A stretch of DNA of 64,000 bases from Stichopus chloronotus (taxonomy: Eukaryota > Echinodermata > Holothuroidea > Aspidochirotida > Stichopodidae), in the NCBI GenBank assembly GCA_021234535.1, contig CM037843.1:36333200-36397199 (forward strand), given 5' to 3'. The translations under genes were made by a program, and so were the position numbers. Shown piece by piece: positions 26,501-52,300 of this stretch; position 1 is the stretch's first letter; the number at the start of each line of letters is the position of its first letter. The notes under the pieces are model-generated. The model did not search any database, had not been told where the DNA came from, and saw only the letters and a program-made list of their open reading frames with translations.

Positions 26501-29500
26501 GTGCAATTGAGAAGGATTTACAACTGAAAGTTAAATTTATGCTAATCCTGTTCGATTTTCTCCGGTGTGATAAGAGTCCCAATTCATAAGGGATGAGTAC
26601 GGCTTAAAGCACACTCTTTCTTTTGTGTGATATATCCAATTTCTAGACAGTATCCAAGTTTATTCACACCTGCTTATATCCTATGAGAAGGATTACTTAG
26701 AACAATGCCTCGATGCCAAGGTTGTTGCCGACAGTCAAGACAGGACTCAAAGCTCACCAATCAAAACAACTGGTTACCTTTTCCGAATCAAGATGGACTG
26801 GCATATAAGAATAAGGTGTAGGGCTTTTGCCATATGCAAATGATTAACATGAACATAAGACTATAATTTACTATTCAATTTTTATCAATTTCTGCAAACT
26901 TTTGCAATTTGTAGTAGGTGTACCCATGTTCAGCAAATTACACATCCTGAAACTGGTCCACTATGATAAACATCAGAAGGCTTCAAAAAGGTGAAACTAA
27001 TTTTCAAGAATAGCGACTGGCAATGTTATAACTATGGACAAAATTTTCCAATGTAACTGACAACAAAGCAGACGACATGAACCCTTTCACGTTAAGACCT
27101 TAATACGTTTGAAGCCCGTTGAATCTGTAAGTGGTGAACAAAGCAGATGTCTTTGGCTGCGACTAGTTAGGGTCAAAGGAAGGAATTAGATGTATCTCCT
27201 TCTAAATCACACCTCACCGGTATGACCAACCACATACTAAATCAGTCATGGTTATGGTCAGTCATGAGAGATCAGTCATGGTTATGGTTAATGAAATTTC
27301 GTGCTTACAAGGTTTTCACATTTTGACCTATAGTGACCTCAAATGACCTTTGACCGCCACCATTTGACTGCCACCAACAACAGTAGGGACCATCTACTCA
27401 ATATGACCAACTCACACACCATGTCTGAAATCAGTAATGATTGACAAAAACACTATTTGGTAAACTTGAACGTAGTTCTTCAGCATTTGACATTCTGCCA
27501 GAAGAAAGCAAAACATGTTTGAAATTGAAGGTACTAGACAAACCTTTAAAAGACTTCATGGATCCCTCATGAACATAAAGCTGAATGATGACAAGGTGGT
27601 TGCCAGCTTCTGCAGTTTTTGCAACACAGGTGGAGCACTCCTGTAACGAATTTGAAAGAGGATGAAGGCCAACTCTGAGTGACATCACAGGTAAAGAACA
27701 GATATCTCAAGTCAAACTCTCAAATACAATTGTTGAGACTGGGGCAATAACATGTTACTTGTATACTAGAGTTAATGGTATCAGTAAGGTTACTTGATAA
27801 TTTATCCGTTCTTTCAACTGTGAGATACTCATTTTTTTTTTCAGTCACTGAGAAAACGCCATCAATCTGAGTGCAATATGCACTTCATACTTTCAATTGG
27901 AAGTTCCTTCCTTAGTTCACAGTCCCACCAAATAAACCAGAAAGCCAAAAGGCTTTGTGATTCCTTGCTACATGGTTATATTATAACAAACATGAATTAT
28001 CCACATGACAAGTATAAGATCAACTGCAGTTATTTTTCTTGATACACTACAAGCCTTCAAGCCAAAATGACCTTTATTTTGGTGACCTGAAATGACCGTG
28101 ACATTTGCGTCCACCAAAAGCAATAGGAATAACCTACCCAGTATGGCCAACCCACACATCAAGTATGACATCAGTCAACATTACCCTTCTGGAGTTAATT
28201 TGTTAGCAAGGTTTGACCTCGGGTGACCTCAAACGACCTTTGACCTCTACCACAAACAAAAGAAGTCTTCTACTTAGTATATACAATCTACACATCAAGT
28301 AAGACATCAGTCAAGGTTAGACTCCTGGAGATATTGTGTTTACACATTTTTACAGTTTCACCTCTGATGACCTCAAATGACCCTTGACCTCAATCAAAAC
28401 AATAGAGATCTTCTGCTCATTATTACCAACACACACCAAGTATTACATCAGTCATGGTTACTCTTCTGGAGATATTGTGTTTTCAAGTTTTTACAGTTTG
28501 ACCTCTGGTGACCTAAAATGACCTTTGCCCTCACCAAAGATGATAGGGATCATCTAATAAGTATGACCAAGCAACACACTAAGTATGACATCAGTCACAG
28601 TTACCCTCTTGGAGATAATGTGTTTACAAGGTTTTCACACTTTGACCTTTGGTGACCTCACATGACCTTTGACTTCCACCAAAATCAAAAGGAGTATTCT
28701 ACTGACTATATACAATCCCCACACTAAGTATGATATCAGTCACAGTTACCCTTCTGGAGATACTGTGTTTAAAAGGTTTTCACAATTTGACTTCTGATGA
28801 CCTCAATTGACCTTTGACCCAAATGACCTTTAAGCTCCACAAAGAAGCAGTGGAGATCTTGAACTCAATATCATTGATATACAAATTGAATATAAGATAA
28901 GTCCAAATTTGCATTCTTGGAGCTACAGTACTTCTAAGATGAAAAAAAAAGACCAGCTTTAGAATATTTTGGCATTACCTCTTTCGTCTTACCGCTGTCA
29001 GTCGATTTATCAGTCTGAAACAAAAATGCAAATTAAAGAAGAAAGCATTTGAATCAAACACAGAGAGAAACTTCGTCACTTCCCTACTGTAGCCATTTTA
29101 AGTCTTACCACTCCATTTCATGGTGTAGAAGTGCCCTTGAGCAAAACACAATCACACATAAAAGAAAGAGCAATATGATGTAAAACTATTTACCCTGAAA
29201 TGAGAAAGCAATCAGGAATTCCATATTTCTTTGCTTCACTTTCCCAAAAAATTACCTTTCAAAAATACAACATAAACCTACAACCTACATGTAGATCTAA
29301 TTTGGCAAATCTGCTCATGAAGGGCATTCTTAAAAGAAAGTAAAATGAGGCATCTGTTTCTCATCCACAGTAGGCTCTAATAGTTCAGTGACATACATCG
29401 CTTTGTAGATAAAACTAATTTTCAACAGAATGTCCATACCCCATCCTTGTTGTCATCTTGTTTCTGAAACATAAAAAGAGAAAAGAGAGTAAAAACATAC

Positions 29501-32500
29501 AAACATGTGAAGCAATGTTACATGTGTCCAAACTGGTTCTAACGGGATCTTCTCGGGCTCATAGCTACAGTATATGCTAGGCCTAAGTTAGTATTGGTAA
29601 CGTAAGTAGTAAATAAGTAGTTCTGAACAGGAGTCACTGTGCTAAATTAATGGTTCGTACGCAGTATTAGCATTTGCTACAACCGCAAATGTAGAAAATC
29701 CCAGCAAATGCAATATCAACCGCTAATGTAGCACACTCAGCTGGTAATGTAGTAAACTCCCTGCTAATGTAAAAAAATCAACAGCTTAGGTAGTAAAATT
29801 GCTCCCCGCAAATGTAGAGCCACCCAACAGCAAATGTAGTTCTACATTTGCAGGGGACGATTTCCATAACATTTGCTGTTGGGTAGTTCCACATTTGCAG
29901 GGAGCTATTTTTACTACATAAGCGGTTGATTTTTCTACCTTAATGGGAGTTAATTACATATGTGGTTGAGTGTGCTACATTAGCAGTCGATACTACACTT
30001 GCTGGGATTTTCTACATTTGCGGTTGTAACAGTATTACGTACACTGTACTTGGCTAGCTAAGTTATGTTGAATAATGCAAACCAAAGAAAACCAGAAAGC
30101 CAAAAGGCTTTGTGATTCCTTGCCACATGGTTATATTATAACAAGCATGAATTATTCACATGACAAGTGTGAGATCAACTGCAGTTACTGGTCTTAAAAC
30201 ACCACACTAATAAGCCTTTAACCCAAATAACCTTTATTTTGGTGACCTCAAATGACATTTGACGTCCACTAAAAGCAATAGGGATCACCTACCCAGTATG
30301 GGGAACCTACACATCAAGTATGACATCAGTCAACATTACTCTTCTGGAGATAATATGCTAGAAAATTTTCACCTCGGGGGACCTCAAACGACCTTTGACC
30401 TCCACAAAAACAATAGGAGTCATCTACTCAATATGACTAACCCACACACCAAGTATGACATCAGTCACACTTACCCTTCTAGAGATACTGTGTTTACAAT
30501 GTGTTTACAGTTTGACTCAGGGTGACCTCAAGTGACCTTTATCTCCACCAAAAACAATAGGGATCATCTACTCAATATGACCAACAAACACACCAAGTTT
30601 GGCATCAGTCGCAGTTACCGTTCTTGAGATATCATGTTTACAAGGTTTTCACATTTTGACCTCTGGTGACCTCAAATGACCTTTGACCTCCACCAAAAGC
30701 AATAGCGATCATCTACTTAATATGACCAACCCACACAATAAGTATGACATCAGACACAGTTACTCTTCTGCAGATACTGTGTTTACAAGGTTTTTCCAGT
30801 TTGACCTCCATTGACCTCAAATGACCTTTGACCGCCACCAAAAACGATAGGGATCATCTACTCAATATGACCAACAAACACACCAAGTATGGCATCAGTC
30901 GCAGTTACGGTTCTTGAGATATCATGTTGACAAGGTTTTCACATTTTGACCTCTGGTGACCTCAAATGACCTTGACCTCTACCAAAAGCAATAGGGATCA
31001 TCTACTTAATATGATCAACCCACACAGTAAGTATGACATCAGACACAGTTACCGTTCTTGAGATATCGTGTTTGCAAGGTTTTCACATTTTGACCTCTGG
31101 TGACCTCAAATGACCTTGACCTCCACCAAAAGCAATAGGGATCATCCACTCAATATGACTAACCCACACACCAGGTATGACATCAGACACAGTTACCGTT
31201 CTTGAGATATCGTGTTTGCAAGGTTTTTCCAGTCTGACCTCCGTCAACCTCAAATGACCTTTGACCGCCACCAAAAACAATAGGGATCATCTACTCAATA
31301 TGACTATCCCACACACCAGGTATGACATCAGACACAGTTACCGTTCTTACGATATCGTGTTTGCAAGGTTTTCACATTTTGACCTCTGGTGACTTCAAAT
31401 GACCTTTGACCTCCACCAAAAGCAATAGGGATCATCTACTCAATATGACTATCCCACACACCAGGTATGACATCAGACACAGTTACCGTTCTTAAGATAT
31501 CGTGTTTGCAAGGTTTTCACATTTTGACCTCTGGTGACCTCAAATGACCTTGACCTCTACCAAAAGCAATAGGGATCATCTACTTAATATGATCAACCCA
31601 CACAGTAAGTATGACATCAGACACAGTTACCGTTCTTGAGATATCGTGTTTGCAAGGTTTTCACATTTTGACCTCTGGTGACCTCAAATGACCTTGACCT
31701 CCACCAAAAGCAATAGGGATCATCTACTCAATATGACTAACCCACACACCAGGTATGACATCAGACACAGTTACCGTTCTTGAGATATCATGTTTGCAAG
31801 GTTTTTCCAGTCTGATCTCCGTCAACCTCAAATGACCTTTGACCGCCACCAAAAACAATAGGGATCATCTACTCAATATGACTATCCCACACACCAGGTA
31901 TGACATCAGACACAGTTACCGTTCTTAAGATATCGTGTTTGTAAGGTTTTCACATTTTGACCTCTGGTGACCTCAAATGACCTTTGACCTCCACCAAAAG
32001 CAATAGGGATCATCTACTTCATATGACCAACCCACACAGTAAGTATGACATCAGTCACAGTTACCCTTCTGGAGATATTATGTTTACAAGGTTTTTCCAG
32101 TTTGACCTCCGTTGACCTCAAATGACCTTTGACCGCCACTAAAAACAATAGGGATCATCTACTCAATATGACTAACCCACACACTAGGTATGACATCAGA
32201 CACAGTTACTGTTCATGAGATATCGTGTTTACAAGGTTTTCACATTTTGACCTCTGGTGACCTCAAATGACCTTTGACCTCCACTAAAAACATTAGGGAT
32301 CATCCACTCAATATGAACAACCCACACACTAAGTATGACATCAGTCACAGTTACCGTTCTTGAGATATCGTGTTTACAAGGTTTTCACATTTTGACCTCT
32401 GGTGACCCCAAATGACCTTTGACTTCCACCAAAAACAATAGGGATCATCTACTCAATACGACCAACCCACACACCACGTATGACATCAGTCATGGTTACC

Positions 32501-35500
32501 CTTCTTGAGATATCGTGTTTACAAGAAGTGTCACATACACACATACACACACACGCAAACCTACACACACCAACCTGACTGCATAGGTTCCTTTGCTGAC
32601 ACAAGGAACCAATAAAAATTCAAACTTCACAGAAGGCGAGATTGTGGAAATAAAATGGACATGCATAACTGTTGAACAGTTTTAGAGATATTTTGGCTGC
32701 GTGACAGGGCATTTTGGTATCACGTTTAACTCCACTTTTCTTTTTGCCACATACAATTAAGTTCAGCTCACCTACACAGGCCTAAACCATTTCAACATGA
32801 GGTGACATCCAGTCCATAAGTGCATTAGTAGTTTGTTTAGGCAGCACACCTCTAATCAAATTATTACAAAACTAAAAGAAAAAAATCCAACAACAATAAC
32901 TTGTGAAGTAGGCCAAAAGCACTCAATAGTTTGTCATCTAATGTTGAGATATGTGCGGTGAACTGTTTTGTGAATTGAAGGCTTAGGCCTCTACAATTTC
33001 AAAGCCACAAACTAAGTTGTACACAGACAATCGGTCACTGGATGGGTAATGGCATTCGGGTACCCCGGGTAAGAACTTTCCACCCAGTGAAAACATTACC
33101 ACATATCAAATCTGCAACAACTTAACCTTCAAAAATAGAACTATAACCTTGATGTAGATCTGATATGGCAAATCTGCTCATGATGGGCATTAATAAAGGA
33201 AAGTAAAATTGCTTGGCATTGACAATAGACTCTAACAGTTATGTGACATACACTTCTTTGTGAATAAAATGAAATTTTCATCAGTTTGTCCATACCTCAG
33301 GGCTTTGATTAGGGCTCTTATTTTCCGCCTGAAGCATAAGAAGAGAAAAAGAGAACTCATCAAAACTTTCATCAACTGAAAAACAGCTGAAGTAAAGAAA
33401 GACTTACTTACTTGGAAGCAAATACCTCAACTTTAAATGTAAAATGAGAGATAAAAGCATCTTAAAACCAAAACACAGAAATGGATTGCGACTGAAATGA
33501 CGTAATTATGAGCAGCTTACACATGAACTGGCATAATGTACTTGGGTAAGGAGATATCAAATCTGCAATCACAAATAACTTTGCTTCACTTTCCCAACAA
33601 AATAACCTTGAAAAATACAACTACAACCTTGATGTTGATCTGATATGGCAAATCTGCTCATGATGGGCATTCCTGAAGGAAAGTAAAATTGTTTGGCATT
33701 GACAATAGATTCTAACAGTTCTGTGACATACACTTCTTTGTGGATAAAATGAAATTTTCATCAGTTTGTCCATACCTCAGGGCTTTGATTAGGGCTCTTA
33801 TTTTCTGCCTGAAGCATAAGAAGAGAAAAAGAGAACTCATCAAAACTTTCATCAACTGAAAAACAGCTGAAGTAAAGAAAGACTTACTTACTTGGAGGCG
33901 AAAATCTGAACTTAAAATGCAAAATGAGAGTTAAAAGCATCTTAAAACCAAAACACAGAAATGGATTGTGATTGAAATGATGTAATTATGAGCAGCTTTT
34001 ACATGAACTGGCATAATGTACTTGGGTAAGGAGATATCAAATCTGCAATCACAAATAACTTTGCTTCACTTTCCCAACAAAATAACCTTGAAAAGTACAA
34101 CAACAACCTTGATGTTGATCTGATATGGCAAATCTGCTCATGATGGGCATTCCTGAAGGAAAGTAAAATTGTTTGGCATTGACAATAGATTCTAACAGTT
34201 CTGTGACATACACTTCTTTGTGGATAAAATGAAATTTTCATCAGTTTGTCCATACCTCAGGGCTTTGATTAGGGCTCTTATTTTCTGCCTGAAGCATAAG
34301 AAGAGAAAAAGAGAACTCATCAAAACTTTCATCAGCTGAAAAACAGCTGAAGTAAAGAAAGACTTACTTACTTGGAGGCGAATACCTGAACTTTAAATGT
34401 AAAATGAGAGTTAAAAGCATCTTAAAACCAAAACACAGAAATGGATTGTGATTGAAATGATGTAACTATGAGTAGCTTTTAAATGATCTGGCATAAAGCA
34501 CTTGGGTAAGGAGAAGTATCATGTTTGGTGTTTTTAATATTTATGATGTTATTAATTGAGACAACTGCACTACATCTGCTGACCTAAGGTGCTGACTGAC
34601 AGGCATCATATACTCAATATTCACACCAGCACACAAAATCAAAGACAACTCCAACCATCTCCCGTTGAGATTTCAAGTATACATGGCTTTCAACGAAAAG
34701 AACAAATGCATTGTGGTTCGGATGATGTCATTATGAGGATTTTTATTATGAATCTGACATGATGACTCATGTGCCACAACTGTATATTATAGACATTACA
34801 CATCCAACAGTTTCCTGTCTTGAGATGCATTTATATTGTATGATATTAGGTGTACAAGTTTGTCACTGCTTGATCCCTGTTGACCTCAAATGAGATATGA
34901 ACTCCTATAAAAGCAATAATTGTCTTGTAGTTAATAGGTTCACCAACATACTAAATACATCTATGCAACCTTCCCTTCTTGAAAAAGCACTTTTACAAAA
35001 TTATATCAAATTGACCCCTGTTGACCCCAAATGACCTTTAAAGCTATAGGGTTCTTCTACTCAATGTGGTACACATACATACCAAATATTAGTGTTTTCA
35101 CTGGGTACTCTGGTACGACAAGGTTCTACCCGGGTAGTCAAATTACTACCTGAGTAGCATTTGCACATATACACGCACAAATAGACAGGCCTAACATTGC
35201 ATTGTCTTGCAGCTGAGTAACAGTATTTTCAAGTTACGCCGCAAAATGTCTCTTTTACTTTCCTTACCATAAACTTGACACTGAAAGAAGTGACAGCTTC
35301 TGTCTTTCTACTGTACCTGATTTGAGTTTAAGTTACATCACAATTGTGTTACAAATCCAACCGGGAACATTTATTTACCAAACATACAGTAACTGTTGTA
35401 TGTGTACAACATAGCCTAAGCTTAAGCCTACACCATGACAATTCTACATAAGAACACACTTGAAACAATCTTCTGAAGAGGCCGAATACATTGTGAAGGC

Positions 35501-38500
35501 CAGCGGGACGATGACAGATCCTTGAGGGACTCCTTCCGTGGGAACAAGTATGGCAGATTCTTTGCCGTTTATGATAACAACTTGTGAGCAGTTTTTTGAG
35601 AAAGATATGAACCAGTTTAAAGCTGTGCCAGATGTACTGTAGCAGTTCTTAAAATGATCAAACGAAAGATTACGATAGATGGTGTCAAATGCAGGAGAGT
35701 AGTCAAGTAAAGGTAAAACAGGTTCACCACCTCACACACATGGAGCTATGCCGTTTCAGCTCTGTAAGCACTCCAAACATGACCGTTCAGATTGTTGTTG
35801 GAGAGATAGCTTTGAATCTAGCAAGAATGTGCACGCTCAGTAGTCTTGGCCAGAAATTCCATATTTGTGGCTGGTCGATAATTCTTTAAGAGGGTTTTTA
35901 ACCAGGTTTTGCTTTCATTATGATGGGTCGAATATGGGTTCGTTTGAGAGAGTTAGGAAAATGGCAATTTTGCAAAGACAAACTAGCAATATTTGATGTT
36001 ACTGGCAGGAGAACATTAATGGATTTCTTTGATAAAAAATTAAGTATAGGATCAAGCTTACTAGATGATGACGGTGATTCCATTATTATTTTCATTAACA
36101 TTTCCTTTGACACAGTTGAGAAACCAGAGAGATTAGAAGATGAAACGTTACTTTTGATCGGAATAACTGGCAAAGACTGGCAAAGATGTACGGCTGTTTG
36201 CGATTTCATCCTCAATCTGCCTGATTTTATTAGAGAAGAAGTCCAAGAACTGATTTGGAAGCACACTACCATCAGAAGCATTAGGTAGAGTAGTTGATGA
36301 CGTGGGCATCGCCAGTTTTTAATTTCATTGAAAAGTTGGCGATAGTTACAATTTAACAATTTTGTGGCCTAGAAGTTTCTTTTGGCTTGTTTTAGTAGTG
36401 CACTATTTTGTCTTTTTTTTTCTCAACGAAAATTTACCAGTCAACTTCCAATTCAGTTCACTGCCAATGAGATTCAGAGCTTTGCAGTTCTTTTCTTTCA
36501 ATGATCTATGTTCATCAGTGAACCAAGGTGAATTTGGTCAGCAGTGAACTGTACGAATCTAAAGTGGAGCATGTTTTTCAAGTAAACCTGACAACACGTC
36601 ATCACATTGATCCACCGACGAATCAAGATCAGGGGCAGGTAAAGTGTTTCAAGGATGATGACAAAATGTCTTCTTGAAATGCTGGGATATTGATTTGACT
36701 AAGCTTGCAGTCTGAATGTCAATCCTATGAGGGGGTGGACGACCAATATGAAGTGAGCAAAGAATGGTAGGTAGGTCAGAAGCCAGGGATTGTGACAGAT
36801 GAACATCAGAGATAAAGGTATCTGATTAACAAGTAATGATTAAGTCTAATGTGTGACCATCACGATGAGTGGGCCCTGAGATATGTTGTGCCATGTGGAA
36901 ATCACCAGGAATCAGCACATATTCCGGCCTGGTGAAGACTGTTTCAATAAAACTTGGATACTCTCTAAGAAATGATGGAAAAAAAAATGGATTGGGAATG
37001 TTTACGATGCATCATCAGCAGCAATCCTGTATCATGAAAGTGTTATTGTTTGCATATAATAGTGGCAGTTGTACCAAAGCTGTATTTCTGGAGTAAGTGT
37101 CACCAAGACAAAACACATTTTGAACAATTTTATGTGGCAAAATACTTTGTAAGTAATGTAGAGTAATTAGATCATCTGAGTTAAGAATTTATTGTTCGCA
37201 GCAACTTGCCATTGAATTTCTAGGCCACAAATGGTGAGTGGGTATGTTAACACAGTCACTGCCCACAAACCCAGCTGAAGCTGCACAAATAAAACCTTTT
37301 TTTTTTTTTTTTTGCGGTGTCGTGATTTCTGTAAATGCGATTGTTGGAAGACATGGACATAAATTATAGCACATGAAAGTTCTTGTTTTTATCACTTTGA
37401 ACACATGGCCAGTACTGCTAGTTCAATAATTACAGGCACTGATGTGCCGCCAATACCGGTACTGATTTTCCTGGTACCGCCCAACCCTACTAAATGTGGT
37501 TTATCAAAATAGCATGTATGATGTTCCTGCATGTGTTCTATAGGACAGTTTACAGGAATTCACAGCTTAACCTAAGCTGATCTCAAATGACTTTTGACCT
37601 CTACAGAAAACAACAGGGTTGGTACATTCCATGTGGTTTGAATTCTTGAGAATTCATGTTTGAAAAAGCATGTTTACAGACATGTGCCTTCATCATGACA
37701 TAGGTTACTACAAGAAATCAAGGAATCCTTGATGCTTGTCAATATAGGCAAAGGCTTGTTTTCAATAACAAGAAAGAAGAACGATCTGCATGAGCTAAAG
37801 TAAGACAATGGATTTGGCAGTTTCCGACAAATATGCAGCTACAAAACACCTACCGGTTCTGCGTCGCGTTTCCTTCGCTACGATGAAACAAAAGAGAAAA
37901 GGAGAAAAAAGCTCAAGTTAACTGATCTGATGGAAAAGGAAGTACAAGCAATATTAACGAGACATGCAGGTTACAGAATCAAGTCTAGAACAAAGCCCTA
38001 TGACCATCAAACTTCCATGTACAAGAAACAAGCAACTGAAAAATGCAACAAATAAAGCTGCATCAGATCTTGAGACAAATGTTTTAGAAGGAAATGCAGC
38101 TGGGAAAAAAGAAACAATATCAGGTAAAAGGTGTAAGAATACCAGGTATATACCTTTTGTCATCACTGGCTCACATGTTACTTTCAACCTCACAGAGGAA
38201 CGACACAAAATACTCTAAAAGATAAGTTCCAGCACTGCGAATGACTATGTGAACAATGACATTTTAAAAGTTTCTGCTGCTGTCACCATGCTGTTTTAAG
38301 ACCCCACAGCAATGTACAGCACAGCATAAATAATGTTTCTTTGCTTAAAGTTGGCATTTCTTTACTACCCTCTTCCACAGTCCCCTCCCAGGCAAAAACC
38401 TTTAGAGCCCCCTGCTCTCTTTCAATCTATGTGGGGTAAAGAGAATGAATGCAACACACCAATTACCACTGAGGTTTTCATGGCGTAAAAAGTCATTATC

Positions 38501-40358
38501 AACTAAACCTGACTGCTTCCCAAATACTGATATATCATACATATATATATAACATGCTATAGTATTTCTCAATTTCACTAGGTTTCATCAACTAGAGATA
38601 TACATCGTGTTTTTAAGGTCCACAGTATCAGTTCTGCCTTTAAACTCAACCTTTAAATTCAAAAGAAATTGAGATTTATTGACTTTATATTGGGAATACA
38701 CATCTCACATATGGCATCTACTATAAATGATTCTTTTTTTTTGAAATGTAATGCTTACAATTTTCTAACTGCATTGACAACTAAAGACCTCAAGGGACCT
38801 TGAAAACCCCAGACAAAGAAAAAAAGAAATACAATGAGAAAACGCACTGTGGTTTCCATGAGGTAACCTACAGTACACTAGCTTATTTGGTTACAGTAAT
38901 TAATACATAAACAATCGGAATTGGACTATGAGAAAAAGATCAGTGGGATTACACACAGGTTTGAGGTCTGTCCAAGCTCCCTTCATAAATTAGAGCAGGA
39001 GTCAATGCTTTATGCTCTCCCAGCAAAATCTCATCGCAATGCATGACATCAATTGCAAATGTTAGAGAAATTCATCATTTTCAACGAAAGTTTTTGTCTT
39101 TTCCAGCACACATTTAATGCCCAGGTTAATGTCCAAGCTCATGTAAAAGCTTCCACTCATGAGATACCATTTACAAGGTCACCAGTGTTTGACCTCAACT
39201 GACTTGAACATCAAATGATACGAACCAAAAACAATGCAGTTCTTGAACTCATCACAAAATATCACCATACTGCTGAGTTTGACCTCTGCTGACCTCAAAT
39301 GACCATTGACCTGAAGAAAAGCTATACAGTTCTTACTAACAATGTAATCCATCAAAAAAAAATCACATTAAATTTAGACTGAGCTTTCACTTTCGAGACA
39401 TCACACTTACAAGTATTCACGGTTTAATATCTTCTGACCTATGATCTTCATCAAACAATATACTCATTTGGTTCATAATATATAGCATACATAAGATCAC
39501 TCCAATGGACTACCAACACACTAAGTTTGAAGTTCCAGCAGCATTCAATTGCTGAGATATCTATCTTAATAGATTTTCAGATTTTAACGTCTGGTGATCT
39601 CAAATGACCTCGGACCTCTGTGGAAAATAATAGGGATAGTCTCTTTCAATGAAGAAACTACACATCAAGTTTGAACTTTCATAATATCCTTCACAGATTT
39701 TCAGAAAGGTAACCTAAAATGACCTTTGGTGACTTCAAATGACCTTTGACCTTGATGAAAAACAATGGGGATCATCTACTTCGACATGTACAACCCACAC
39801 ATTAAGTTTGAAGTTCCAGCAACTTTCCCTTATTGAGATATTTTGTTTCCAAGTTTTCAAACTGTCACCTCTACTGACCTCACATGACCTTTGACCCCAT
39901 AAAACAATGATATTATCTACTCATCAAGGGCTACTAATGTGACAAGTATGACTTGCCAGCAACATTCAGTTGCTGAGAGATATCCCTTAATAGGATTTCA
40001 TACTGTAAGCTCTGGTGACCTCAAATGACCTTTGACCTTCATGACAAAGAATAGGGATTATCTACTTGCAATGGACTGCATACTCATCACCTTTGAAGTT
40101 TGGGAACATTTCCCTTTGTGAGATATTGTGTGTACAAGCAAAGACATCATATATGTAAAAATACGCATACACCCAACTTTGTTTTCCATTCATTCCGAGG
40201 ACCTCATTGTGCTTTCTTTTGTTTTTTCTTTCTCAACCCTAACCTTAACAATAGACTGTCTATTGCTAATCTTGAGAGGACTGGAGAAATCTATTGAATT
40301 TTCTACAGAGGACCTAAAACCTATTGTTTCAGTCCTCAATCCCACCCGAAAACAGGGG

Positions 40359-40391
<33 letters not shown>

Positions 40392-43300
40392 CATCATGAC
40401 CGCACTGATATCCTTGCCTGCCTCCAGCAAGGAAGCAAAAATGTTCATCTTGAAATGTGAAAGCAATCAGAATGCCATGTTGCTTTGCTTCATCTTCCCA
40501 ACACGATTTCCCTTCAATAAAAAACATATGTATGGCAAATCTTCTCAAGATGGGCATTCCTAAAGGAAAGTAAAATGTGGTACCTGTTTCTCATTGAAAT
40601 TAGGCTCTAACAGTTCTATGACCTACACCTCTTTGTAGTTAAAATTAATTTTCAACAGAATGTCCATACCTGGTTCCCTTTGTCACCTCCATTCTGAAAA
40701 ATAAGAAGAGAAAAGACAACTTACATCACAGTACTTGAAAGAAAAGCTTCAAGAAACCATTAAGTTGGTGGTGAATACCTGAACCTTCAATGTAAAATTA
40801 GGGGTAAATATCTTGGAATGAGAATGCACAAATGCATTGTGGTTTCAGTGATGTAATGAGTACATTTCTTTATGAATCTGTCATATTGCATAACATAAGG
40901 ATAACAAAGACACTTGGTCTTTGTAATGTAGCATTAATTTATTGTGTCAACAATTGAGATAAAACAGCTGCATCTCACAATCACTGATGAGTGTTGACCT
41001 TAAGTGATGCGTGACAGGTATCATATACACAACATGCATACTTGCATACTAAAAAAGGACCAAGTGTAGCAAGCTGCTGCCTGTCTTCAGATTCACGATT
41101 TTCCCCAAATTGAGGCAAAAATGTTCACCCTGCAATGTGAAAGCAATCCAAGATGACATATTTCTTTGTTTGCTTCACTTTCCCAACACCATTACCCTTC
41201 TTTACTTCAAAGCTGAAGTAAAGAAGGATAAGCTTTAGAAAATTTTGGCATTACCTCATCGCTATCCCCACTACCGGCCGGTACATCATTTCCATTCTGA
41301 AACAAAATTGAATATTGAATTAGAAATGAAGAACTTGAATCAAACAAAAGAGATACTTTGTCCCTTCCATATAACTCTGTATTCCTAGTCTCACCTCTTC
41401 CATTTTGTGGTGTAGAAAAACCCCTAAATAAAATAGTCATACATAAAAAGAAAGAGCAATATGAGGCAAAGCCTTTTACTCTGAAATGTGAAAGCAATTC
41501 AGAATGCCTTATTTCTTTGCTTCACTTTCCCAACACGTTAATTCCCTTCAAAACTACAAGTAATGTTTTCATACAGCAAATCTACCCAAGGTACAGTGAA
41601 ACCCCATGTAACCAAACCCTGTTTACGCGAGACCCTGATGCGCGAAACACTGTTTACCGGAACGGGCCGTTTGGTTTCGCAAAACTGGTGTCTTCAACAA
41701 GCTATGTAAATTTCAGCTTAGATTTCACATTTTGTCTCTCTGTTTTACTTTTTCGTCCTGCACCAACTTAAATTGCAGTAAAACACACCTATGGTTAATG
41801 TTTATCTCTAATTCCGACCTGAACCAACAAGCTGGAGAATGAATACATGATACATGATGACCCTAATTCTTTTCTCTCTCTTCCTTGTCCATGTAGAGTC
41901 ACAATAGGATAATCAAGTCAATAGCACACCGAAGTGCACTACGACTAGGCTTTTCATACAGAGCCCTGAGTGATTGAAATTTACAAATGCACAGAAGAAT
42001 GTCAATCAGGCTTAAACATAGGGTGTTGGAGTGTTTTGTGTGTGGACTTTGGGCTATCCTAACACTGAGCAAAGTATCGCAACAAAGACGGACATTCATT
42101 GCACCCATTTAAGAAATCCTTCTTCCAAGTTCAATCTAAAAGTAGAACAGCAAAGCCGCTGACTCTCAACACTTCTGGTTATTTCATGTTTCCTTTATAA
42201 GAATGTCCTTGATAAGTTAGAAACACTTCAATTGTGACTGAAGAGACTGACAACAACAATCAGAGAAGTTTGAATCTGGTCGATGTATCTGGTGTTGACA
42301 AAATATTAGACTTCTGTTACTTAGTTCATTTGCGTGCCATCCATTGTTAACAATGTAACATAGTAAACGTACTCATTTATGTCAATTAAACCGTTGTTTC
42401 TAGTTTTGGCTCACCTTCTCTGAAAATGAGATCGGCTAAACCCTTGGGATCAAACCATTGTTCTGAGACAGCTAATTGGGTAATGTTTAATTGACTTAAA
42501 TGATGTTGCTAGGTGAATGCTATTGAACTGGAAGACCTTTGGGCTAACTGAACAGCTTGATCATCCTTCAATTTAGTGGGTCTCACAGTATGAGCATTAA
42601 ATTACATGCACACCTGGCATCTGACATTCTTCTTTTGTACTTCCATCTTTCATGGCGTTCTTCACATCATTCACATCACACACTTGAGTTGAAAACCTCA
42701 ATACTTCTCTGTCCTTCACTATTGAACACTCCAATCACAGCAAATCAAAGAAGGAGCTTAAACAACTACTGTCCACGGCCCACCAATCCAAACAAAGGAT
42801 TGAAGCATCAATAATTTATGCTAGACGATGTGCAAAACTACAGGAAAAGATCTACCTTTCACAGGTTTCAGACCTGTTCTTAGTCACTAATTTGCAAAAA
42901 AGACTTATTGTACGTAATTGTTTCACACCTCTGTGGCCTCATAGACCATAGCATTTTACTACAAAAAATTCAGGCGTTTAACTTTTCCCCATTAAGTCAT
43001 TGTTGGTTTGAATCTTACTTCACTGTGGATTTGTTAATGAAACACTTTCGTCAATTAACCACTTTGTACGGGTGTACCTTAGGTTTCCATTCTCATTCCT
43101 CTGCTGTTTCTTATCTATATTAAAGATCTTGCCTTATGTTTATCCTACTGCTCTTCTGACATGTATGCCAATGACACAACTTTTCACATACGTTTCCAGC
43201 ATAGACGAAATCTCCTTTCAATCAGTTCTTATAATATAAGTAATGGTGCAATGACAACGGAATGGCGATTAACTAGGAAAAGACAAAGCCTATGCTTACA

Positions 43301-46300
43301 TGCAAAATACATACTGAACATAGTTTACCTGATAGTGTATTAAATGTGTGCATGAATGGCAGTGGACTTGAAAATTCTCAGATGAAAAAACTGCTAGGGG
43401 AGTAGGGGTATGAGTTGACTAAAAGCTAATGTTGCATTATCAAGTTGACTATATTTGCAACAAAGTTAGCTCAAAAATAGTTGTGTTAAGATGTATCAAA
43501 CGGTATATTGACATTCCTACCAGGATTTTATATTTTAATGGTTTTATAATGCCAATACTTGAATAATGTGGCCTGGTATGGTCAACATGCTCTAGAGAAA
43601 ACACTGACAGAATTTAGAGGTTATTGAAAAGTGCTGAGAGAGTTCTTTTAGATGTAACACGCAACAAAATATCCTCTGACTTATTTAATACCCTGGGATG
43701 GAAAAAGATTCGAGTAATGTACAAAGAATAGTGTGCTCAAATGGTATATAAATCACTTCACGGCCTCACCCCTAGTTATATGAATGAAATATTTGTGTAT
43801 ACACATTAATTCCATTCACAACTATGGCTTGAGGTCCTCATCGACGGATGCCCTCTACATGTTCAGGGGTAAAACTGAAATACAGAAGAAACAATTTTCA
43901 TACATCGAGGCCAACCAATGGAAGGATCTACCACCACCTACCAGGAAAGCTCCCACTCTGTGAATACTGAATTCTTTTATGAAATGATAATGTTTTATTT
44001 ATCATTTGTATTCTTTTTTTTTACTTTTCTTCTCGGGAAGATACGCTCTGCGTACCATGTCACCCTCCATTAACAAGCTTTAAATAAGTATAAAGAAACT
44101 CCTTCTCTAGTAACATCTTTTGCTTGCATTTATATTAACATGATGGAGAAGTTTGATACACATTGACAATGGACCAAGACACCGACATCATTTTAAAAGA
44201 ATATCAGAAAGTCCAGTTAGTCTGACAATATCTTTACACATGTCATGTACTGAGATAAAACCACACGAGTTTGAATCTTCAACAAACGCTTTTAACTATG
44301 AAAAGAAAGAAATGACACTGAGACAACATAACAATGGTTACTTTTAATATATTATTAAGTGCATGCTACACTTTAGACACCAAATTAAAGATATGTGTGA
44401 GACGCTGTTTATCCAAACTTTTCCGTAATCCAAACAATGTTTGGTACCAACGTGTTCGGATAAACAGGGCTTTTACTGATAAATGTGGCATCTATGTTTC
44501 TCATTGACATGAGGCTGTAACCTTTTGGTGACATAAACCTCTTTGTAGGTTATGATTTTCACCAAGACCTTAAAGTTCTGATTTTCAACAGAATGCCCAT
44601 ACCTCTTTCCCTTTGTCATCTTCATTCTGAAACATAAGAAGAGAAAAGGCAACTCATCAAAACTTACATTACAGTACTTGGAAGAATAGCTTCAAGAAAC
44701 TGTTGATTGGAAGTAAACCTTCAATGTAAAATGAGGAGTAAATATCTTGGAACTGGAATACTCAAAAAAAAGATATATGTGAAACACTGTTTATCCAAAC
44801 TTTTCCGTATAAACAACGTTTGGTACCAACGTGTTCTGATTAACAGGGCTTTTACTGATAAATGTGGCATCTATGTTTCTCATTGACATGAGGCTGTAAA
44901 AGTTTGGTGACATACACCTCTTTGTAGGTTATGATTCTCACCAAGACCAAAAACTTCTGTGACCTACACCTATTTATAAAGAAAACCGGTTTTCAACAGA
45001 ATGCCCATACCTCTTTCCCTTTGTCATCTTCACTCTGAAACATAAGAAGAGAAAAGACGACTCATCTAAACTTACATTACAGTCCTTGGAAGAAAAGCTT
45101 CAAGAAACTGTTGCTTGGAAGTAAATACCTGAACCTTCAATGTGAAATGAGGGGTAAATATCTTGAAACTAGAATGCACAAATGAATTGTGGTTTCAATG
45201 ATGTAATGAGTATTTCATTATGAATCTGGCATATTCCATAATGTGATGCCTCGTTAACGGAGAATGCCAAGGACGAAGACAAAGATATCCCCCAGACATG
45301 AAAGTGAGTGTCTGGGGCCATACGAACCCCAGGGTTCTCCAAGCTAAGGGGTTCTGCCAGCCTGACAGCCTCCACACAGTCAAATGAAGGTCCTGGACCC
45401 TTGGGTGCTGAACCCTGCGCCTGTCCTGAGAAACTACAGTCAGAAGGGTGCAGCTCCACTGGAAGGTCTACCAGCAGATGGAGCAGACTGAGGAAGGCCC
45501 TGGCAGCAAAATCCGCCTGGCACCAGTCCTCCTCGATCTTCTTACTCAGGGGATCCCTAAACATCCCCGAAGCCAGACCCTGTTCTAACCCTTACCTTGC
45601 TCCGAATTTTGTCCGAAACAGAAGGTGGCCTGAACAGGGTCTCCCAGTGACCCTCTAGAACCCTGATCGCACATTCCTGAAGGACAGGAAACCGACATCA
45701 GGGTTGCCTCCCAGCGAGAGTTTCCAGCTGTTTGAGACAGTGGTCATCTACTGGGAACTCCAGTGGGCTTGAGACGACCTTGTTTGTGGCTGACAGGCAC
45801 GAACCTGAAGGTCCTGCTTCGCTACGAGGGGAAGAGTCATAGCCCAGCTTGGAGATGAAAATCTCCACAAACCACGGTATGAATGATGGGGGAAGATCAG
45901 TACCCCTTGGGGAACTATCCTCCTCCGCTGTCACGAGAGGTGGAGCCCCCTCTGCTGGCTCCATCTTCTCAAGCTTCTCATTGAACTTTTCACTGGCGCT
46001 ACATGAACACCTATGCTGGCACTCCACTCAGATAGTGTCATACTCTCATTAATGCTTGTCCCTTCACCTTTTGCCACCCCTCAGCCCTCCGCCAGATGAA
46101 GTTTGGTTATGCCACTTGCTGATTAAACAGTATCTGACGGAACTCAATCAAACGTATATTATATCATTGAATACCATGAGCAAAATTAGGAAATCCACAT
46201 CCGCACCTCTCAGAAAACAAACTGCAGATAATAGGATAATAGGATGGTGAAATTTGAATAAAAGAGAACTGTCACACCCCTTTAAACCCTACCCTTTCCC

Positions 46301-49300
46301 CATATTAAGCGATCATGGCAGAGACCCTTAAAGTAGTTTGCTGCAGACATTTCAGGACCAACATATGGGAGTAAGAAAGGCTACTTACCGGAGATTCACC
46401 CTAGTTTTGAGAAAAGAGAAATGTTAAAGAAAAAACAATTAGTTGTAACATTATACATCACATGTGTATCTCTTGGAAATATCCACACATTTTGAGTCTA
46501 GAGAGACAGATCCCGATTCAATGAGGAAAATCACTGTCGATAAAATCATTTGGACAATCACTCTGTATGTCTGTGTTCCTGTGATGAAAATGTAGGAGAG
46601 TTTGCAACAGGCATCCAGGTACCTCATGTCAAAACCTGGTTCTGAAACTGCTACATGGATCCAGAGTTTCTCTAAGATTCATTATATGTGTGACAAAAGT
46701 CAGAACTCCTCATTGTCCGGTCCATCCATTGTAATATACATTGTGTTAAATATTAATATGCAAAGCAAATTGGCATGTTATTTATATCACTTCACTACCA
46801 ACTTGTAGCCTGACAGAAGTTGTATTTTCAGGTACAGGGTTACTCGAGCAACTATGGATTGTGGGTGCCCGAGTCTTAAGTTTAGACAAACACTTAGTGC
46901 AAACACTAACATTTAGGGCGTACAATTCCCACTCAGCATTCCTTGAGTTCATGACACCTGATTAGTGCACAAAGCCATAGTAAAAGAGTCATCCCTTAAT
47001 GGAGAGGAACTATGCAAGGGCAGTGATTAAGTTAAGTGAAAGTCAGGACGTCTGAGATGAAAAAATGCTCCACAGAACAACCAATTTTTGATACAAGGTT
47101 GTCCTCGGGACCATCAAATTACAATTAGTGCTCCAATCACATTAAAATTTTGCTTTCAAGATCTGGAACATGTGATGAAATCTGGGGATGAATTGCTAAC
47201 AGCACAATGCAAATGTGTTACTGGTACACCAACCTGGAAATACATATACAGTGAGTCATGACGTGACTTTTGGCAGGACAAGTTAATTTTGAAAAGTACA
47301 ACCTCATTTTGCATGCTTGTTGTCCTTTGGACTACAACATGAAAATGTTAAAACTTCAACACTGTATGGTGCTTTAGAATGGTTACAAAAGTTATCACAT
47401 GACATTATCAGTGTACTGGATGTAAGGTTCATCTTTCTGGTCTCAAGAAACAATTTCACATGTCAACCAAAAAAGGAGTACTCACCTCTAAACAGTCTAG
47501 GTATTTTTTTAATGTCTGTTTCCTTACGTAGCAAGTTCCGTTGGTAAGATCATCCTTTGACAATTTCTGAAATGATAAACCACAACACAAACAACAGTAA
47601 AATGAGCTTACAATGGGCCTGACAGAGTGCAACACAATAATTCCATACCAAGGTCTGTAATTCTGCTAAAATAATGCAATTCTATTTTCACTGTAACTAA
47701 GCAAACAGCACAATGCAACATCCACTAAACAATCAGGACCAACTCTGAAAGTTGAAAATGTTATTGTATCAAGTAAAAACACCAAAGTTCTATTAGAACA
47801 AAATCAATGATATTGTTTCAAAACTAAAATGTTTCATAAAATGTCGCACATATCAAGAAAGAAAACTGTATTACATACACTATTGAAGTTCAAATGTTAC
47901 ATGAAATGTTTCATGAAAGAAACAGGTAAGATCGTGTAAAGCTCACTGAAAATTTTAAGCAATGATATTCTGACGTAGTGGGTGTATCTTGAACAGCCTA
48001 ACCATCCTGGTGATTCACATTTCTGTGTTACAGGGAACAAACACCTTCGGGCAAGCTGCTGACTTCAGATTTTTTACAAGAAACATTTAAACAATAACTT
48101 TTTGTTTTGTTCATTGATTCTAGTTACTTTAAAATGTTTAAAGGTTTGGAGTAGCAGAATGTTGGTTTCGTGACAGGTTTTGATCATGGAAATAAATGTT
48201 CTAATTTGAATTTTTAAGGGTTGTGATGCATTCACTATCTGTCACTTTGCAGATTGTTCTTGTATATGCAGGCCTAAGCTTATGCTTTTTCATTGACATT
48301 GAGTGTAGTAAAGGAGGTATACTGTAGGTAAAATCTTCTGGAAACATATTTTTACATACCTTCAACAAATATTGATCATGAGTAAAAGATACAGGCATTT
48401 ATCTACAAGATTTCACGATTTATTTCACTTTTTTGGCAAAGAAAGCATGTGGATGGAGCATTTAAGATACATGTTTGAATGGATTCATTAACTTCTTATT
48501 TTCGGATGTAACCATTTAGAAAACCAAGTGTATGACCTCTACAGTGATCAAAACAAGCATTGTATGCATAAGATAATCCCGGGAGGCAAAAGACAGAAAC
48601 CCTCGGTGAGCTTCATGCCTCTCCCCAGACAGGAAGGCGTGACCCATGCTCAAGCCCAGCTGTGCCCCCAAATTATAGACCAGTTCCTGAAAAGGGTGGG
48701 ATGAGACTTGTCCCAATTAATGACGCAGCCCAATTGCTCAAGCAGGGAGATTGTTGCTCCAACGCTGACTTCCTCTTGGGCTAGGGAATCCCAGAGGATA
48801 ATCCAGTCGTCCAGGTACGCGAAGAGCAGTATGCCTGATGCCAAAGTTCGGCGAAGACTGCCCGCACGACCCGGGTGAACACCCCGGGGGAGCAGTAAGC
48901 CCGAAGGGGAGAGCTGTGAACTTGAACCTCTCCCCAACTTGAATGCCAGAAACTGCTGAGACACTGGAGCTATTGGCACGTGCAAGTACACATCCTTCAG
49001 GTCCAATGACGCTGCCCACATCCCCCTCCGCAGAGTGGGGATGATGAAAGCCGAGGTTTCCATTCGGAACCTCCTTGGCTTTACGTAGTCGGCGTTCAAT
49101 GGCCAGAGATTGGGATTGGTCACCAGGAGCTGATTTCCTCAATCTCCCCAACACGGCAAGTTTAGTGAGAGCTCCATAGCCCAGCTTGGAGGTAATAATC
49201 TCCACAACTGAAGCCAGAAGAGAAGGGAGCAGATTAGTACATCCAGGAGTGCTATTATCTTCCTCCCCATTTGGGGTAAGGTTGCGGTCTCCTGGCCTGT

Positions 49301-52300
49301 TCCTCCATCTCCTCGATCTCGTCATTAAACTCGTCAGAAGTAAGAGGTTTGAACGAGTCGGGGGTGGGGTTCGGCAGCCGCACCATGGGTCACAGGGAGC
49401 TACAGTTGGACGTGAGGTGGTGCCGGAGGCTGCTGATCACTGGTTGAGGGATGAAGGTGGGCCATTTGCTTGGCCACTTCCCCAGCAATCAGAGGACCCA
49501 GCAGACTCGCAAACTGGGTGATCTAGTTTGGGTCTGATGGGTCTGGAAATCACCTAAGACTGTATGATCTGGATTGGGTAGCCCAATCATACACATTGTT
49601 AGAGTCAGGGGAATCCAAACTCTGATGTGTAGAGCCCGATTGAATAGGACTCTGGGACCAGTCAGTCCAGGGTGCACTATTCTGATCACGGTTCCGGGAG
49701 GGATAAAGACGCACAGGGGGCTGCAAACTGCTCCAGCAAGATTTCTGGCAGGATCCAGGCACCCAGGAGCCAAGTCCTGACCACTAGCATCCCAGGAAGC
49801 CTGTGGGAGATCTTCCCGAGGAACATCTTCATCTGCAGCCTCCTAGGGAGGGTCTGAACCCTGCTGTGCCTGCTCAACCTCCCATGGGATGGTACGAGAC
49901 TCGGCTGCCGAAGCCACTGGTTCCTGGCTGGTCTACAGGGCACCAGAGCGCGAAGCTCAGCTGCCCAAAACCTACCCCACCTTCTCTGCCGGCCTAGCCT
50001 TCCTCCCCCTAGACTTGGTTCGAGACTAACCTTTCACAGGCCTAGCCGCGGATCCAGCAGGAACCTGGACTCCTGATGATCCAGGACAGAGGGATCCAGG
50101 ACAGCATCCAGCCGCCCCCCAAACCTCCCCTTGGCCCTGCAGTCAAAAGTGGATCTCTGACCACTGGGCCAGGGAAAAGGACAGGCACCGTTCGCACAAA
50201 TCTTACCACATGCATGAACGGCACAGGGGGCACACAGAATGCGAGTCCTAATCCCTTCTGCCCCTACATTGATTGCATATGGAGCAACGAGGACCAAGAC
50301 AGGGAGATGTGAAGCCAAATCAAGGGGGATGTAACTCTCTAACTAAGAAACCTAGCACCCACAAAACAAACCAACGAGAATTACAAAAGAAAGCTAGGGG
50401 GAACATGTAATTATGGACTACTCATTACGTAACTTAAGAAAAATACCAAAAGCAGACTTGAGGCAAATCGTTACGTGAAAAAGACTAGAATGCAAGATCA
50501 CATTAACAGGGGAATTGCACAATCCCCTAAAGTAAATTGTGAAATTGTGCAATAACAAAAAGTGTAGGCTATGGACTATTAAAGCTGTGCAGCGGCATGA
50601 TAAAAATATCTGTCCTCGGCACACTGTATAAAAACGAAAATTCTTAGACAAAATTCTGTGACAAGATAGGAAAAATTTGAACAGAATTAACAAAGCTACA
50701 AAAAGTAATGATACTAGAAACAAAACACAAGAAACACAGCAGAGAGACACTCGAGGGACTCGAGTGAAAGGAAAAAGTCCTCAGAGGGCGCGGTGCTAGA
50801 ATTAGTTTCGAGGACGATGTGAGCATCCAGGGTCAACTGTATGCATTAGTGAGGCAAGGGGTAGGTATATGTCTATGATGTCTAAAGACTTGCTGAGTAA
50901 AAATGCACATGGATGATACCTTGGGTGTCTCTTTTCAATTTTTTCCAGCATAATTATGGATTAAAATTTTTATTATATGCAACTTTACGAAAAATGATAT
51001 TTGTGTACTGGTATCTAATTATTTCGATAAGAATGTCTGCAATGCCTGGTCAGAATTTTGAATATTTGATACTTTCAATTTTGGTATCTTCATAGGATTA
51101 TTGATACCAATGTTTTCTTTTTCATGTTAACATCAACGACTCCCCCTTGTGTTCTTTTTGCCAAGAAGATAATGAAACTCTGGCACATCTTTTTTTGGTT
51201 TTACCCCTAAACTAAGGTTTTGAGTTGAGACCTGTGCTGTGTGTTTAAGAGAAAACATTCAAATGAAATGTCTGTTCATTTTGGCTACACAGCAAAGGAT
51301 AAGAACTTTTTAAATTTTTCATCTTTAATGCTAAGTATTTCATCCTTATTCATACATAAAACAGTTCAATATCAGATTCAGTGACCATTTATTTCAAAGG
51401 TTTTCACAATTTGCCCTCTGGTAAACTCAAATGACCTTTCACCTCCACCAAAAAAGATAGGGATCATCTACTCAATATGAACAACCAACATACCAAGTAT
51501 GATATTAGCCACATTTACCCATACTGAGATATGGTGTAAACAAGGTTTTTAGAAATTGATCTCTGGTGACCTCAAGTGACCTTTGACCTCCACCAAAAAC
51601 AAAAGGGGTCTTCTCCGCAGTATGGCCAACCCGCACACTAAGTATGAGATCAGTCAAAGTTACTTTTCTTGAGGTATCACATAAACAAGCAGCATCACAC
51701 ACACACACATGACATCACCATTGCATAGATTCCTTGTCTGCCTTTGGCGAGGAATGAAAAACTGGGAGATTTCACAGGCCTGTTATAACCCACATCTGAA
51801 CTTTCCATAAAAAAATGATCACGCCTACCTCAAAGCAGGGTAGAGAAGTGCTGAATGGATGGTAATACTGACAAAAATGTACCTGGTACATTGCAAAAAT
51901 ACTTACAGGAAAGGGTTTCTCGGCTGTACCCTCCATTGTCCTTTTCTCTGAAGGATCATCTTCTTTATCTTGAACACGAATGTACTCTTCAACTGAAAAC
52001 ATGAAATTATGCTGATTGTACAGCGTCTGTAAGAAGTCATAATGACCCTAAAAAGGAAACAAACAAAAATTATGAAAGCAGTGATAGGGCAGTTGACACA
52101 AAAAGATGCTTTTCCATCACATCCCACAAAGCAATGTTTGATGATCATCGGGCAGCAGGAAAGTGCCCACAATTTTTGCAGTGCCGGCAGTGTTCAAGAT
52201 CACAGACTTCATGTCCTATTTTTAAGCCATCATTTGAGCAAATTGATCCTGGCAAGAGTTAACCTCAACATTGATTTACTGTCACTGCATTGTTCTACAA

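Follow-up and report, generated by a model that had tools for sequence, protein, structure and literature searches.

An array of in-frame microexons in the lumenal loop of a sea cucumber TMEM87 gene

The 64,000-nucleotide (nt) stretch of Stichopus chloronotus DNA analyzed here (the window; C15:36333200-36397199 of a 719-Mb assembly) carries a TMEM87 gene on its minus strand, and within the lumenal part of this gene lies an array of eleven predicted microexons, which we conclude is real. We think it likely that this in-frame array encodes a disordered loop of the GOLD domain and that alternative inclusion of its members yields a variable linker in this species, as predicted Apostichopus isoforms suggest. 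With less support, the member encoding RRKRDAEP may be a splice-controlled proprotein-convertase site.

The microexon array and its duplication

A partial reconstruction of the window protein without the array scored 299.6 bits against human TMEM87A, its seven-helix part aligning to residues 205-492, and a Pfam scan of the partial protein with the array returned one match, the GOST seven-transmembrane domain (GOST_TM, PF06814, E = 9.1e-66). Its closest relatives were sea cucumber proteins. A tree built on the membrane part joined the gene with Apostichopus (226/263 identical, support 93/93) and then with Holothuria (203/263, 100/100); its classification as holothurian follows from this tree. 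The equivalents of human cysteines C89 and C431 lie in RYTQC and FNEC, and the array accounts for 103 of the 559 residues of the partial reconstruction.

The initial annotation had described eleven segments with splice signals, phase 0 and lengths divisible by three. Exact placement bore out their outer limits (46400 and 28979), sizes and order, as well as the coordinates of the flanking lumenal exons (47566-47486 and 27640-27544), and all eleven segments are free of stop codons, in phase 0 and of 3n length, with AG/GT borders (Table 1). Together they sum to 309 nt, that is 103 residues with a net charge of -11; six of the nine distinct peptides are net negative, two neutral and one positive, in agreement with the mostly acidic, hydrophilic peptides first described. 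The 2^11 forms proposed at that time hold as formal splice forms (2,048) but not as proteins, of which at most 1,024 can be distinct because three microexons encode one peptide (AENKSPNQSPE). As many as 512 of those possible proteins include the exon with the furin-type site.

We scored splice signals with a matrix built from the 11 acceptors and 11 donors of the gene's ordinary exons; microexons are referred to below by the higher coordinate. At a score of at least 20.0 the array intron gave six candidates, all of 3n length and all belonging to the type A defined below, against none antisense to this intron, none in the remaining introns of the gene (20,720 nt) and none on the whole plus strand. 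Seven type-A exons head the ranking in the array intron, six at or above 20.0 and the seventh at 19.1, and the best non-array candidate reached 18.3. At the weakest threshold the array intron held 74 candidates (lengths modulo 3, 28/23/23), compared with 6 antisense to it, 40 across the remaining introns of the gene and 41 on the plus strand. Hairpins around the microexons were also considered and rejected: eight units were folded, with z-scores from -0.94 to 1.61, and none was supported.

Comparison of the array with itself placed nine of the eleven microexons in two locally duplicated families. Type A comprises 45034, 44626, 40693, 34288, 33808, 33328 and 29463, with near-identical flanks, and type B comprises 41296 and 29014; the GESP and RRKRDAEP microexons are single. 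Across eight duplicate pairs, differing sites amounted to 11/320 (3.4%) in the 20-nt splice flanks, 223/2290 (9.7%) in the rest of the intron and 42/225 (18.7%) in the exons, a comparison that counts some copies twice, omits gapped positions and relies on BLAST, which trims diverged intron; all of this favours an exon excess. Mantel-Haenszel tests against the intron gave z values of -4.2 for the flanks and +3.6 for the exons; pair by pair, exon divergence exceeded that of the intron in five cases and fell below it in three. Among the six pairs of equal length, 13 of 14 exon differences were in nonsynonymous codons. We do not claim positive selection on the microexons, given the shared copies, the omitted gaps, the trimmed intron and a 13:1 ratio not clearly beyond neutrality. 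Our reading is that splicing is protected, while the peptide may be free or diversifying.

A second TMEM87 gene lies on the same contig, about 8 Mb from the window gene (C15:28399998-28432501; 28.40-28.43 Mb). The tree places it, with a long branch (0.76), as sister to the window gene (99/95); its frames are open in the part compared, and the ratio of nonsynonymous to synonymous rates (dN/dS) is 0.44 over 287 codons. It holds eight in-frame microexons of 12, 21, 21, 21, 30, 21, 21 and 30 nt. Upstream of them a 13-residue stretch matches exon 47566 (E = 0.06), and downstream lies the counterpart of exon 27640. Six of the eight have counterparts in the window: one GESP-like 12-nt exon (75% over 95 bp including flanks), two of type A and three of type B; the two 30-nt microexons found no clear match there. 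Type A measures 24 or 33 nt in the window gene and 21 in the second, and type B 42 or 36 against 21. To the codon count above, the 12-nt exon adds four nonsynonymous-codon differences and one other between the two genes. The splice-score scan of the second gene's intron gave 18 candidates scoring at least 13 (lengths modulo 3, 12/4/2, some overlapping); candidates were kept if their flanks were homologous or mutually similar and the others were dropped, including one of 3n length (19433-19468), and two of the type-B copies came from homology rather than from the scan. We conclude that the second gene is a fast-evolving TMEM87 duplicate with a predicted microexon array of its own.

The lumenal loop and its convertase-type site

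In human TMEM87A (structures 8ctj, 8hsi, 8htt and 8kb4) residues 145-173 are missing from the structure and disulfides join C74 to C128 and C89 to C431, according to the accessible text of PMC9711517; the exon after the array starts a few residues ahead of human residue 174. The AlphaFold model of the Apostichopus ortholog P0002 (mean predicted local distance difference test score, pLDDT, 64.8) has strands within residues 34-128 and 230-264, and a low-confidence stretch between strands 121-128 and 230-264, with pLDDT below 50 at residues 132-228. The segment bearing the motif RX[KR]R falls in this stretch of the ortholog, consistent with a flexible lumenal site. The four best PDB matches of the model were all human TMEM87A, with a GOLD domain plus seven transmembrane helices; the GOLD beta-sandwich was recognized in the model of this ortholog. 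Equivalents of C89 and C431 are kept in all 37 aligned relatives.

Linker length across these relatives ranged from 28 to 204 residues and from 84 to 168 in the seven vertebrate rows, so the short vertebrate linker initially assumed fits mouse TMEM87B (by eye) but not the aligned vertebrates. Between the chosen markers the window linker would measure about 14 residues with all microexons skipped and 117 with all included. Since 14 residues is below the range of the relatives, transcripts lacking the whole array are probably not the rule, and the array would replace the ordinary family linker. The idea of a tunable lumenal linker stands insofar as the array is lumenal and in phase 0 and a variable hydrophilic linker is possible; the array is, however, probably not an insert but the family's own disordered GOLD-domain loop.

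The same gene in related species, a check suggested along with the initial annotation, was congruent with a variable linker, as predicted isoforms of Apostichopus and Lytechinus variegatus vary only there. The three Apostichopus models compared (X8, X38 and X39; the numbering up to X39 is that of the source labels) differ from one another solely by 42-nt units in the linker (168 and 126 nt), and L. variegatus X3 and X10 differ by 84 + 39 nt of linker and nothing else. In the crinoid Anneissia the predicted isoforms X3 and X4 likewise differ only by 159 nt of linker, with loss of an RHRR site. The older Apostichopus model P0004 displays by eye 8-residue repeats, equal to 24 nt. Residues 130-320 of P0001, used as a protein query, returned only four already known Apostichopus proteins.

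Among the eleven microexons, only 37877-37854 encodes an RX[KR]R motif (RRKR↓D), located in the lumenal linker. This basic exon had initially been set aside; with a furin-type site that it shares with many relatives, it is perhaps the most telling member of the array. Of the 37 aligned relatives, hand-chosen from 120, 26 carry RX[KR]R in the linker (21/30 invertebrate and 5/7 vertebrate rows), against 0.76 expected by shuffling, and 34 carry a wider basic motif there, against 7.1 expected; the N-lobe held RX[KR]R in none of the 37. A wider scan covered 121 proteins (120 matches plus the window gene), of which 103 had a lumenal part definable by markers, some of them short fragments; RX[KR]R was present in 38 of these 103, with 2.3 expected by shuffling.

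A second search, around frog TMEM87B and mainly of tetrapods and fish, examined the zone between 170 and 40 residues upstream of the first helix, with groups sorted from protein names. Only one of 116 proteins had RX[KR]R: 0/53 mammal, 0/32 fish (33 sorted), 1/28 amphibian (31 sorted) and 0/3 unnamed. The wider basic motif occurred in 24 mammal, 3 fish, 6 amphibian and no unnamed proteins of this set, the mammal cases being mostly ARTQRDG, which by eye lies outside the linker. On this count we rejected the furin-type site as a universal TMEM87 feature. The predicted convertase-type site is widespread in invertebrates and some fish; mammal TMEM87Bs, as far as examined, lack it.

The first search did return eight fish proteins with RX[KR]R (P0055, P0074, P0076, P0092, P0096, P0112, P0115 and P0116). 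In Lates calcarifer, P0092 has the site and P0236 belongs to the fish group of the second search, in which 32 of 33 proteins were scanned and none had it; fish perhaps have two TMEM87 genes differing in this respect.

Proposed explanation, rivals and known systems

We propose that two microexon types were multiplied by local duplication within a GOLD-domain loop that is found in relatives in some form, and that the array acts as a variable-length, mostly acidic linker. With RRKRDAEP included, cleavage would leave the first five strands in one chain and the last two, together with the seven-helix domain, in the other; the halves would remain linked through the disulfide equivalent to human C89-C431, a pair of cysteines kept in every aligned relative. 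Without RRKRDAEP the protein would remain in one piece. A stronger version, in which a single 24-nt microexon decides the furin cutting of a Golgi GOST protein, the others set the spacing of the halves, and an old convertase site became a splicing switch in echinoderms, is speculative and we hold it to be somewhat unlikely. Linkers of naturally graded length, with a protease site that can be removed, would allow a direct test of the loop missing from the human structure, and the convertase-type site in many animal TMEM87s suggests that many animals may have a two-chain form. Neither a TMEM87 microexon array nor a convertase-type site is reported in the accessible parts of the literature searched, mostly papers free of subscription, nor did a word search of PMC9711517 and PMC11239671 find them.

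Several observations weigh against this proposal. Usage of the microexons in this species is a prediction from sequence, and the Apostichopus, Lytechinus and Anneissia isoforms are likewise predicted models. Four of the microexons (46400, 37877, 29014 and 41296) score 8.0 to 14.9, indistinct from chance candidates, and exons diverge faster than the surrounding introns, so the peptides may matter little. The 37 aligned rows are not independent, with three Apostichopus isoforms and two rows for each of several genera, and the search query itself held the motif. With RX[KR]R in only 38/103 and 1/116 proteins, cleavage would be dispensable in many of them. A furin-type exon was sought in the second gene and not found; RX[KR]R words exist in the raw frames of its array intron, and the one inspected (18813) was by eye no exon. 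Lastly, no mention of TMEM87 cleavage was met in the accessible portion of the literature searched.

Part of this evidence suits a near-neutral origin, in which the loop tolerates any hydrophilic sequence and duplicates accumulate and skip freely, with no regulated purpose. We give this explanation a serious, if less than even, chance. It would account for the excess of exon over intron divergence, the share of exon changes in nonsynonymous codons (near the expectation without constraint), the spread of linker lengths among relatives and the repeat-rich array intron, but it sits poorly with splice flanks more conserved than the intron, with length differences among copies that all preserve the frame, and with the recurrence of a convertase-type site in the linker of many relatives. 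Constitutive use, with all or nearly all microexons in every transcript and one long linker, seems unlikely to us. Type-A acceptors do match the gene's highest scores, and the all-included linker is within the relatives' range while the all-skipped one is below it; against this, the predicted isoforms of three genera vary in just this linker, the donors of types A and B are at the low end for the gene, and the acceptors of 41296 (3.1 bits) and 46400 (4.8 bits) are weak.

That the segments are intronic repeats that look spliceable by chance is scarcely credible. The splice score alone was rejected as proof for the four low scorers, and in 29014 an internal donor outscores the chosen one (13.1 vs 11.9), yielding an out-of-frame 22-nt exon, so other support was needed: 46400, 41296 and 29014 have homologues in the second gene, where the type-A and type-B exons have other 3n lengths, and 37877 is supported as a real exon because it alone encodes, in frame, the motif expected from relatives. 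A genome search with the 201-bp type-A unit gave, among the matches listed, 6 at the locus and 24 elsewhere. Such recurrence and the four low splice scores speak for this rival, but the matches elsewhere cover only the first 33-56 bases and none reaches the exon-bearing part, which led us to reject the unit as a dispersed element. With 30 candidates scored, this search did not pick up the diverged copies in the second gene; it is therefore not exhaustive and says little about distant copies. A role in antigenic or recognition diversity, like that proposed for the micro-exon genes of schistosomes, has in its favour a similar exon anatomy and fast exon divergence. We consider it very improbable, as the remainder is a conserved seven-helix protein with Golgi-linked human relatives and the linker, with 6% hydrophobic residues, offers no obvious binding surface. 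TMEM87 proteins themselves have been proposed, in the accessible literature, to form a Golgi cation channel, to be part of a mechanosensor or to act in trafficking.

Compared with known systems, the array is a real and unusual variant of symmetrical-microexon arrays. Vertebrate neural microexons depend on SRRM4, and a UGC is expected near their acceptors. Six of the eleven exons here are likewise no longer than 27 nt and in frame, but here tandem duplicates predominate, confined to one loop of a single gene, and UGC was seen by eye in three of the seven type-A copies of the window. The micro-exon genes of Schistosoma have very small symmetrical exons that yield many similar proteins through alternative splicing, are apparently restricted to platyhelminths and have most of their coding region in such exons, as stated in the accessible text of PMC4350168. 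The series of tiny symmetrical exons is shared (eleven of 12-42 nt, all phase 0); however, the microexons here make up a single loop of a conserved membrane protein, and the host is an echinoderm. GPR107, a GOST-family protein of the trans-Golgi network, is reported to be cleaved by furin, which its N-terminal domain is said to require (PMC10451959, in its accessible text; title of Tafesse 2014). The accessible text mentions no splicing switch for GPR107, and the cleavage of TMEM87 is a sequence prediction. Human TMEM87A and TMEM87B are of the same family, with PF06814, a GOLD domain plus seven transmembrane helices and the C89-C431 cysteines, but the loop absent from the human structure corresponds here to eleven microexons, one with a convertase-type site. 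The alternative event reported in the accessible literature for both human genes, exons 11/11a at a U12 intron, is a different one.

Gene structure and further features of the window

The coordinates of the exons are collected in Table 1.

Table 1. Exons of the TMEM87 gene in the window
Feature	Position	Strand	Remarks
Lumenal exon	58382..58487	-	GKYYHAVMKSLF...
Lumenal exon	55858..55943	-	RYTQC cysteine (equivalent of human C89)
Lumenal exon	51907..52047	-	
Lumenal exon directly upstream of array	47486..47566	-	KLSKDD...YLDCLE
Microexon, 12 nt	46389..46400	-	GESP; single in window, counterpart in second gene
Type-A microexon, 24 nt	45011..45034	-	SEDDKGKE
Type-A microexon, 24 nt	44603..44626	-	NEDDKGKE
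Type-B microexon, 42 nt	41255..41296	-	NGNDVPAGSGDSDE
Type-A microexon, 24 nt	40670..40693	-	NGGDKGNQ
Single microexon, 24 nt	37854..37877	-	RRKRDAEP; furin-type site; second-gene counterpart not found
Type-A microexon, 33 nt	34256..34288	-	AENKSPNQSPE; copy 1 of ~480-bp tandem repeat
Type-A microexon, 33 nt	33776..33808	-	AENKSPNQSPE; copy 2 of the repeat
Type-A microexon, 33 nt	33296..33328	-	AENKSPNQSPE; copy 3 of the repeat
Type-A microexon, 24 nt	29440..29463	-	KQDDNKDG
Type-B microexon, 36 nt	28979..29014	-	TDKSTDSGKTKE
Lumenal exon directly downstream of array	27544..27640	-	contains GNHLVIIQLYV, alignable to human TMEM87A starting near residue 174
Membrane part (GOST_TM, PF06814), seven exons	16554..23412	-	reconstruction stops short of C-terminal end
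Membrane-part exons	23412-23351, 22060-21940, 21147-20985, 19410-19317, 18122-18057, 17247-17080, 16737-16554	-	

The likely first exon is just outside the window, at about C15 36398038-36398136 on the minus strand, where the predicted N-terminus resembles that of Apostichopus (E = 0.005). The gene also has an AT-AC intron of U12 type, 809 bp long (17248-18056, minus strand), which begins ATATCCTTTT and ends AC, with a branch-like TTCCTTAA starting 20 nt before its end. A second ATATCCTT was sought between 58487 and 16554, and none was found besides that of this intron.

In the array intron, four related segments (41482-41559, 41112-41200, 40432-40517 and 29176-29270, minus strand) all end in ATTGCTTTCACATTTCAG, which resembles an acceptor, or in a close variant of it. 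In one the AG is broken, by eye they are without a donor, and they may represent a decayed further microexon type. Between 30200 and 32570 we noted by eye a tandem repeat of about 145 bp (GGTCAAAGGTCATTTGAGGTC...), further copies of which lie elsewhere in the array intron and close to the second gene. Two further intronic stretches on the minus strand, 48600-49400 and 35500-36950, were judged by eye to be decayed and retrotransposon-like.

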